Assembly (NCBI GenBank): GCA_900016675.1
Contig: LN483071.1
Span: 620,001 to 684,000, forward strand
Direction of reading: 5' to 3'
Origin: Arthrobacter saudimassiliensis
Lineage (GTDB): Bacteria; Actinomycetota; Actinomycetes; Actinomycetales; Micrococcaceae
DNA length: 64,000 bases
Shown: positions 18,074 through 19,423 of the stretch, piece by piece
Position numbering within the stretch: position 1 is the first letter of the stretch
Layout: each line of letters opens with the position of its first letter
Position numbers and translations under genes: made by a program
Notes under the pieces: model-generated
What the model saw: the letters and a program-made list of their open reading frames with translations, nothing else
Told to the model about the DNA's origin: nothing
Databases searched by the model: none

Positions 18074-19216
18074 CTAGTCCACCACTCTAGTGGCTGAAGT
18101 AACCATAGTGGAAGTTCCGGGAACCGTTTGACGCCCGTTCCGCCTGTGCCCGGCAGCCTCGGCCAGGTCCGCCAGGACCGCTTCCGTAACGCCCCAGTCC
18201 ATGCAGGCGTCGGTGATGCTCTGCCCGTAGGTCAGATGGGCCGGCCCGGACGCCGGCAGCTTCTGCGCCCCGCCCTGCAGGAAGCTCTCCAGCATCACTC
18301 CCGCCACCCGCTCCGCGGCGTCGTCGGCGGCGGCGATCTGGGCGGCTATGTGGCGGGCGACGGCGGCCTGGCGGACATGGTCCTTGCCGCTGTTGGCATG
18401 GGAGGCGTCAATGATCAGGCGCGGGTTGAGGCCCCGGGCCGCCAGGCCGGCGGACGCCTCGGCGACGTGGGCGGAGGAGTAGTTGGGCCCGTCGCTGCCG
18501 CCGCGCAGGATCAGGTGCGTATCCGGGTTTCCTGCGGTGGCCACCATCGCGGCCCGCCCCTCCGCGTCTATGCCCAGGAACGTCTGGGGTGCCGCTGCGG
18601 CGGCGCAGGCGTCCAGTGCGACGGTCGTGCCGCCGTCGGTGCCGTTCTTGAAACCGACCGGCATGGACAGCCCGGACACCAGCTGGCGGTGGATCTGGCT
18701 TTCGGTGGTGCGGGCGCCGATCGCACCCCAGCCGACCAGGTCGGCCAGGTACTGCGGGCTGATCGGCTCAAGGAACTCGGTGGCGGTGGGCAGGCCAAGG
18801 TCCGCCACGTCCAGGAGGAACCGCCGCGCGGCCCGCAGCCCCGCCTCGATGTCGTGGCTGCCGTCCAGGTGCGGGTCGTTGATCAGGCCCTTCCAGCCCA
18901 CGGTGGTGCGCGGCTTTTCGAAGTAGGCCCGCAGCACGATCAGCAGCTGGCCGCGGTGCCGGTCGGCGGCCTCTGCCAACCGGTGGGCGTATTCCAGCCC
19001 CGCCTGCGGATCGTGGATGGAACACGGCCCGGCGATCACCAGCAGCCGGCTGTCCTCGCCGTCGAGCACGCGGCGGATCTGCGCGCGGCCGGCCTCCACG
19101 CCGGCGGCGGCCAGCCCGCCGAGCGGCAGCTCGTCAAGCAGCTGCCCGGGCGCGGGCAGGGCCCGGAAGGAGGTGACCCGAAGGTTCGAGGTGGCTGCAG
19201 GAGCAAGTGTGTGCAT
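18074..19216 (-). CDS. aroG: 3-deoxy-7-phosphoheptulonate synthase (type I DAHP synthase)
   Basis: Commits phosphoenolpyruvate and erythrose 4-phosphate to the shikimate pathway. The 380-residue protein matches the AroF/G/H class: A-G-P-C-S-I-H-D near residue 60, R-A-Y-F-E-K-P-R-T-T-V-G-W-K-G near 95, G-A-I-G-A-R-T-T-E-S-Q near 165, G-F-K-N-G-T-D-G-G near 190, and the metal-binding D-A-S-H-A-N-S-G-K near 268. The ATG at 19216 is preferred to an upstream GTG because an AGGGACGG ribosome binding site precedes it. A leader peptide and paired RNA stems upstream suggest attenuation by aromatic amino acids. The symbol follows class, not proven feedback specificity. Confidence 0.94.
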   Translation of the reverse strand: MHTLAPAATSNLRVTSFRALPAPGQLLDELPLGGLAAAGVEAGRAQIRRVLDGEDSRLLVIAGPCSIHDPQAGLEYAHRLAEAADRHRGQLLIVLRAYFEKPRTTVGWKGLINDPHLDGSHDIEAGLRAARRFLLDVADLGLPTATEFLEPISPQYLADLVGWGAIGARTTESQIHRQLVSGLSMPVGFKNGTDGGTTVALDACAAAAAPQTFLGIDAEGRAAMVATAGNPDTHLILRGGSDGPNYSSAHVAEASAGLAARGLNPRLIIDASHANSGKDHVRQAAVARHIAAQIAAADDAAERVAGVMLESFLQGGAQKLPASGPAHLTYGQSITDACMDWGVTEAVLADLAEAAGHRRNGRQTVPGTSTMVTSATRVVD

Positions 19217-19221
19217 GATGG

Positions 19222-19358
19222 TCCGTCCCTGTGGTGACACGGCGGGACCGGATGCTCAGAACCCGCCGGGAATGGCGAAGGGCAGGGAATTCTCCCTGCC
19301 CTGTTGGCTCTGAAGGTAAGCGTCAGCGTATTACCGCGCGGGCTCCTCCAGAGCCAAC
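19222..19358 (-). promoter_or_regulatory. Candidate aromatic attenuator: pairing stems and ribosome-site complement
   Basis: RNA elements in order. Segment A (19358-19345) lies directly after the W-Y-A-Y-F codons. Segment B (19316-19303) pairs with A over 14 bp including one G-U. A separate hairpin GGGCAGGGA/TCCCTGCCC (19301-19293 with 19288-19280) follows. Its 3' arm is complementary (TCCCTG) to CAGGGA at 19231-19226, the ribosome binding site of the DAHP synthase gene. B can alternatively pair with GGTTCTG at 19263-19257. There is no clear U-run, so translational control is at least as likely as termination. Confidence 0.7.
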
Positions 19359-19387
19359 GGAAAATACGCATACCAACGCTTGGTCAT
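19331..19387 (-). CDS. Aromatic-rich leader peptide of the DAHP synthase gene
   Basis: An 18-codon reading frame, [18 protein letters not shown], with a TAA stop, 114 bases before the DAHP synthase start. Trp, Tyr, Tyr and Phe, the three end products of the pathway, occur within five codons. A TAGGGT hexamer is exactly 6 bases before the ATG, so the peptide is probably translated from a leaderless transcript. The codons just after the aromatic cluster form one arm of a 14-bp stem, so a ribosome stalled for lack of charged aromatic tRNAs would mask that arm. This is the layout of ribosome-mediated attenuators such as aroR in Corynebacterium glutamicum. Confidence 0.82.
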
Positions 19388-19393
19388 GCCCCG

Positions 19394-19423
19394 ACCCTAG
19401 ACCCCTGCCCGTCCCCGGCGCAA
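19394..19423 (-). promoter_or_regulatory. Candidate promoter of the leader peptide-aroG unit
   Basis: TTGCGC (19423-19418), an 18-base spacer, TAGGGT (19399-19394), then 6 bases to the leader ATG. Confidence 0.5.

Follow-up and report, generated by a model that had tools for sequence, protein, structure and literature searches.

We found that the DAHP synthase gene in the stretch of DNA analysed here (the window, 64,000 nucleotides in all) is preceded on the minus strand by an 18-codon leader ORF and a series of RNA stems. Judged from sequence comparison, leader and stems very probably form a real switch, in which a ribosome could sense the three pathway end products together. The best explanation, and one that we consider rather probable, is a ribosome-mediated attenuator acting most likely on DAHP synthase translation. 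The step catalysed by DAHP synthase commits carbon to the whole set of aromatic amino acids; well-studied bacteria usually divide its control between isoenzymes or repressors. If the explanation is correct, a single leader could combine the signals of the three end products, and the element might provide a testable system in which leaderless initiation, rare codons and RNA switching act together. An earlier reading of the window from its sequence alone (the sequence-only reading) had pointed to this region; the observation is real, and all the elements that it named occur in the window. What it overlooked was segments F and G, which provide the conserved connection to the ribosome binding site (RBS), a complement of the aromatic codons past the leader stop, and how widely the element is spread. 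The features are collected in Table 1.

Table 1. Features of the leader region and DAHP synthase gene in the window, in the order of the minus strand
Feature	Position	Strand	Basis
−35-like TTGCGC, 18 nt from −10	19418..19423	−	Sequence; TTG −35 in 123/135 regions
−10 box TAGGGT, 6 nt before leader ATG; predicted 5′ end = ATG	19394..19399	−	TANNNT search, 135 regions
Leader ORF including TAA	19331..19387	−	Sequence; comparison of family upstream regions
Segment A, codons 4–9, CGT TGG TAT GCG TAT TTT (R W Y A Y F)	19361..19378	−	Near-invariant synonymous sites
Segment B, 5′ arm of 14-bp stem, just after aromatic codons	19345..19358	−	Alignment, swap test, pair counts
Segment C, post-stop complement of A	19318..19332	−	A:C versus shuffles
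Segment D, predicted to pair with B or alternatively F	19303..19316	−	Alignment, swap test, pair counts
Hairpin E, AGGGCAGGGA/UCCCUGCCCU, 10 bp, terminator-like, no U-run	19279..19302	−	Folding; shares no arm with B, D, F
Hairpin H (CGCC/GGCG), part of predicted OFF state	19264..19277	−	Folding
Segment F, GGCGGGUUCUGA, predicted to pair with D or G	19256..19267	−	Shuffles, swap test, pair counts
Segment G, GGUCCCGCCG, predicted to pair with F or RBS	19240..19249	−	Swap test, 16 genera
RBS region of DAHP synthase gene, CAGGGACGGA	19222..19231	−	Sequence
aroFGH-type DAHP synthase, TIGR00034	18077..19216	−	Profile match, E=1.6e-139; sole match in its genome

The leader runs from an ATG at 19387-19385 to a TAA whose last base is 19331, with the DAHP synthase gene following from 19216. 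The DAHP synthase protein was matched in 135 of 345 Micrococcaceae genomes, including 12 of the 29 within the genus; the other 17 of 29 had no aroFGH match. For comparison of the upstream regions we used 133 sequences, the window and 132 relatives, leaving out two of the 135 matching genomes: G122, a weak partial protein match (E 6.7e-4), and G196, which has an exact copy of the 17-mer CGTTGGTATGCGTATTT ~210 nt upstream of its protein match. The leader was present in all 133, and the 18-codon frame with its W-Y-A-Y-F cluster was confirmed. When the sequences upstream of the DAHP synthase genes were compared, the W/Y/F cluster was kept in 133/133, which supports the proposal of a single conserved leader whose codons cover Trp, Tyr and Phe. 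Allowing at most one mismatch, we found the 17-mer in 131 of 345 family genomes, and its reversed control gave 0 matches; a one-mismatch match in G327, lying inside a coding frame, was taken as chance. A looser pattern matched 23 of 396 genomes in the order. Three of these matches were outside Micrococcaceae, and two of the three (L215 and L216) are leaders before aroFGH. At two loci (L113 and L171) a one-base insertion and a one-base deletion, respectively, shift the leader frame after WYAYF, with the RNA kept. The genome of the window also encodes a type II DAHP synthase (L277, G000:C1:1215155-1216450), and no aromatic leader was found in the ~400 nt upstream of it.

The TAGGGT hexamer noted six bases 5′ of the leader ATG is present at 19399-19394. 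To this promoter comparison L215 and L216 were added, giving 135 regions, and TANNNT was searched 4–10 nt before the ATG, with the same range for control positions. The motif ended 6–8 nt before the leader ATG in 135/135 regions, compared with 72 of 2700 control positions, and a TTG −35 at a spacing of 15–20 nt was seen in 123. An SD-like 4-mer preceded the leader in just seven of the 135 regions and the DAHP synthase gene in 108. The constancy of the −10 geometry indicates that the leader is very probably leaderless, with transcription starting at the leader ATG, as the sequence-only reading had proposed.

The RNA segments (A, B, C, D, E, H, F, G and RBS) were defined from alignment A1 of 49 representatives together with masked folding; the masked folds are those listed among 28. 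Compared with 200 dinucleotide shuffles, the region 19190-19400 gives the better fold (z=−5.0). In the 14-bp stem, GUUGGCUCUGGAGG (19358-19345) pairs with CCUUCAGAGCCAAC (19316-19303), one of the pairs being G-U. Starting from this stem, a chain emerges in which B:D excludes D:F, D:F excludes F:G, and F:G excludes G:RBS; on comparative evidence, B, D, F, G and the RBS are linked in a series of mutually exclusive helices. Hairpin E, which had been given as 9 bp, does follow the stem but measures 10 bp; among the folds listed, it shares no arm with B, D or F in the window or the family representatives. By eye, hairpin H has a counterpart in another genus (GCUAU/AUAGC). No Rfam match was obtained in the window or in L015 and L018, the best sub-threshold hit (E 1.1) being on the other strand.

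We assessed each pairing by a swap test in 16 genera, comparing a segment's pairing with its own partner and with the partners of other genera. Own pairing was better in 15/16 genera for B:D (p=1.5e-4), in 15/16 for F:G (p=0.002) and in 13/16 for G:RBS (p=0.0017). Controls gave no such preference: B:RBS was better in 4/16, tending worse (p=0.058), and F:RBS in 4/16 (p=0.50). The alternatives begin just after the sensing codons with B:D versus D:F, of which D:F is the weaker, its swap test not being significant (10/16, p=0.18).

Pair counts were limited to B:D and D:F, because MAFFT misplaces hairpin E in some genera. For B:D, 98.3% of cells were paired and 15 cells had changed on both sides, with 0 of 500 shuffles as high on either measure. 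Together with the swap test, this upholds the 14-bp stem as a real helix. All of the both-side changes are at one pair, U-A to C-G, and the counts of both-side-changed pairs and of pair types showed no excess over shuffles. For D:F, 88.2% of cells were paired, a level reached by 51/500 shuffles, and four cells had changed on both sides, which 3/500 shuffles equalled; compared with shuffled sequence, D:F pairing was significant (p≤0.05) in 86% of the 49 representatives. Compensatory changes were seen for the 14-bp stem (15 cells, one pair). The 3′ arm of hairpin E does complement CAGGGA at the DAHP synthase RBS in the window, but the complementarity is not conserved (own better than cross-genus pairing in just 7/16 genera, p=0.90), and we rejected it as an RBS-pairing element.

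In four genera (g10, g29, g18 and g19), F pairs better with its own RBS than with those of other genera; such pairing would act with the wrong sign. At three loci of one genus (L111, L112 and L120), an 8-bp match between F and the RBS (GGGUUCUG:CAGGACCC) complicates the model.

On the explanation that we favour, the chain would work as follows. Shortage of an aromatic aminoacyl-tRNA would make the first ribosome stall on W-Y-A-Y-F, leaving B free. B:D could then form, releasing F to pair with G, and the DAHP synthase RBS would be open (ON). With all three amino acids plentiful, the ribosome would cross B while D and F are made, so that D:F forms and G, without its partner F, would mask the RBS (OFF). 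If the leader is untranslated, A:C and a local B hairpin may keep B from D (OFF); this step is the weakest of the scheme. Because the number of steps between B and the RBS is even, the control would have the sign required by physiology.

We compared, by equilibrium folding in silico, a ribosome covering B with one stalled at W5 in the 16 genera. In the predictions, moving from the first state to the second lowered D:F in 16/16 genera, raised F:G in 16/16 and lowered G:RBS in 13/16 (p=0.013). The net openness of the RBS and start was unchanged between the two ribosome positions (six genera up, eight down, p=0.67), and with other ribosome footprints the change was likewise not significant (p=0.18), so equilibrium folding did not demonstrate that the RBS opens. 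For the window, G:RBS was flat in silico (8.28 versus 8.31 expected pairs), and with the ribosome stalled F:G came to just 0.08 pairs. Support is thus good for the first half of the chain and weaker for its output, because RBS openness did not change and the last steps are flat in the window. With a ribosome parked at the leader stop, predicted D:F averaged 1.7 pairs (7.8 in the window), and with no ribosome B:D dominated on average (8.8 pairs versus 2.6 for D:F). Given these two values, the OFF state has to depend on timing. F:G can form while the RBS has yet to be transcribed, and we infer that the order of synthesis may decide. Control at the level of translation, which the sequence-only reading had raised, stands as the best reading, although equilibrium folding gives it no net change in RBS openness.

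That unchanged openness would also suit transcription attenuation, in which hairpin E acts as a terminator with a weak U-tract and passage of RNA polymerase depends on the leader ribosome, as in Corynebacterium glutamicum aroR, described as a transcription attenuator (PMC11802643). Hairpin E is strong and, by eye, is followed in many regions by a UUCGYCAUU-like sequence; a true U-run follows the hairpin in some lineages (L185, L248, L252 and L275), and at Pseudonocardiaceae-like loci D seems, by eye, to share sequence with the 5′ arm of the hairpin that follows. In the window, however, hairpin E has no U-run, and its lack of an arm in common with B, D or F means that neither alternative helix excludes it in the folds listed; the stem therefore does not look like an antiterminator. 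A classical attenuator of the trp or aroR type, with a U-run terminator sharing an arm with its antiterminator, was not found in the window. Furthermore, termination at E would not require the observed covariation of F:G and G:RBS with the RBS. We regard this alternative as possible but unlikely.

Across 132 regions, the codons of segment A were CGT in 130, TGG in 132, TAT in 131, GCG in 130, TAT in 131 and TTT in 129. Codons 12–14, which lie in the stem, are also fixed, whereas codons 2, 3, 15 and 16 vary synonymously. TAT and TTT are both rare in the window genes: in six of these, TAT makes up 4 of 48 Tyr codons and TTT 2 of 67 Phe codons. The fixation of synonymous sites across genera, with two of the codons rare, indicates that selection acts on the nucleotides. 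Pairing of A with segment C was significant against shuffled sequence (p≤0.05) in 61% of the 49 representatives, compared with 2% for a control region. A:C gave no covariation signal in the swap test (9/16, p=0.86), because A hardly changes, and it accounts for only part of the codon constraint, because C varies and A does not.

The residues R, W, Y, A, Y and F are each found in 130–133 of 133 regions, unusually constant for an attenuator leader, which could point to nascent-chain arrest, with the WYAYF peptide stalling the ribosome on a free aromatic amino acid or another ligand. Selection on the peptide, however, gives no account of the fixed synonymous sites; the frameshifted leaders of L113 and L171 have lost the C-terminal part, with the RNA preserved, and the order of the aromatic residues differs between families, making arrest very improbable. 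Slightly less probable still is that leader translation governs the access of Rho or RNase between leader and gene, with the stems protecting the transcript: the window lacks a U-run and Rho has been suggested for mycobacterial cys leaders with no obvious terminator (PMC1262725), but the covariation of G with the RBS is not predicted.

No published account of this element was found, and exact peptide strings returned 0 papers; most subscription papers fell outside the search. The nearest mechanism to the translational attenuator is that of leaderless polycysteine short ORFs, which reportedly involve sequestration of the RBS. These mycobacterial ORFs (Canestrari et al. 2020; PMC9031893, PMC13236596) are likewise leaderless and short with cognate codons, and control translation of the downstream gene. 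They respond to one amino acid; the element described here would read three and has a longer chain, B-D-F-G-RBS.

The nearest system, which we compared by its published description, is aroR before aroF in C. glutamicum (Neshat et al. 2014), possibly the known tip of the same family. It too is an aromatic leader peptide before an actinobacterial DAHP synthase gene. In the accessible descriptions it contains Phe-Tyr-Phe and confers transcription attenuation under Phe limitation, with ribosome stalling said to raise expression (PMC11802643, PMC4046766); Trp, part of the leader here, is not mentioned in them.

Further parallels exist in the leuA LEU element of actinobacteria (Seliverstov et al. 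2005), described as having Leu codons that pair with the RBS and a proposed pseudoknot (PMC1262725). Both systems have a leader peptide and competing RNA structures with no clear terminator. Unlike the Leu codons, however, the aromatic codons show no link to the RBS (A:RBS, 9/16 genera in the swap test, p=0.71), and pairing of the LEU type was rejected. The same study reports no conserved RNA structure before the phenylalanine and tyrosine operons of the actinobacteria studied (PMC1262725). The trp attenuators of Streptomyces and Corynebacterium (PMC1262725) also combine a cognate-codon leader peptide with competing helices, and S. lividans TrpL1 is leaderless (PMC8079986). As described there, they differ in having a U-run terminator and an antiterminator that share an arm, and in responding to one amino acid (PMC1262725). 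A survey of S. lividans leader peptides lists eight, of which only two are aromatic, both for tryptophan (PMC8079986). The leader described here suggests that further actinobacterial leader ORFs are still unannotated.

In the phylum, DAHP synthase was matched in 57 of 396 genomes. We examined 66 regions, made up of 40 of 54 new upstream regions and 26 named loci; two duplicate pairs reduce these to 64. An aromatic ORF, defined by at least three aromatic residues in six codons, was found before aroFGH on the sense strand in 33/66 regions (32/64 distinct) and on the antisense strand in three. By origin, with duplicates kept, the sense ORFs occurred in 10/10 regions from same-class genomes, 4/30 from other classes (one of the four, L261, being doubtful) and 19/26 named loci. 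W, Y and F were all encoded in 27 of the 28 leaders studied in detail (26/27 distinct), the Streptomyces leader of L015 having W and Y only. TANNNT stood 6–8 nt before an in-frame start in 31/31 leaders outside the family (30 distinct), in-frame starts up to 60 nt upstream being allowed; the background was 37/516 starts, a figure that includes those 31.

Part of the loci outside Micrococcaceae were placed in 19 groups by peptide likeness. B paired better with its own post-stop region in 18/19 groups (p=7.6e-6), and the control B:RBS did so in 10/19 (p=0.59). A link resembling G:RBS was unsupported in these groups (10/19, p=0.89). It is about evenly balanced whether these loci make up an old, actinobacteria-wide family of leaderless sensor ORFs before aroFGH that report on Trp, Tyr and Phe together, with the codon nucleotides fixed, a helix chain relaying ribosome position to the RBS, the output part re-invented between lineages and C. 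glutamicum aroR as a member.

Three loci of a distant phylum group (L248, L252 and L275) have leaders reading ERFYYRF or nearly so, a stem resembling B:D and then a hairpin that carries a true U-run, and are possibly a transcriptional version. The Pseudonocardiaceae-like loci with the apparent overlap of D and the next hairpin are L260, L262, L041 and L063; their output part may have been rebuilt. In a Streptosporangiaceae locus (L010), the WYWRF-coding and B segments are kept with no short ORF called, and by eye the frame may run on into the gene.
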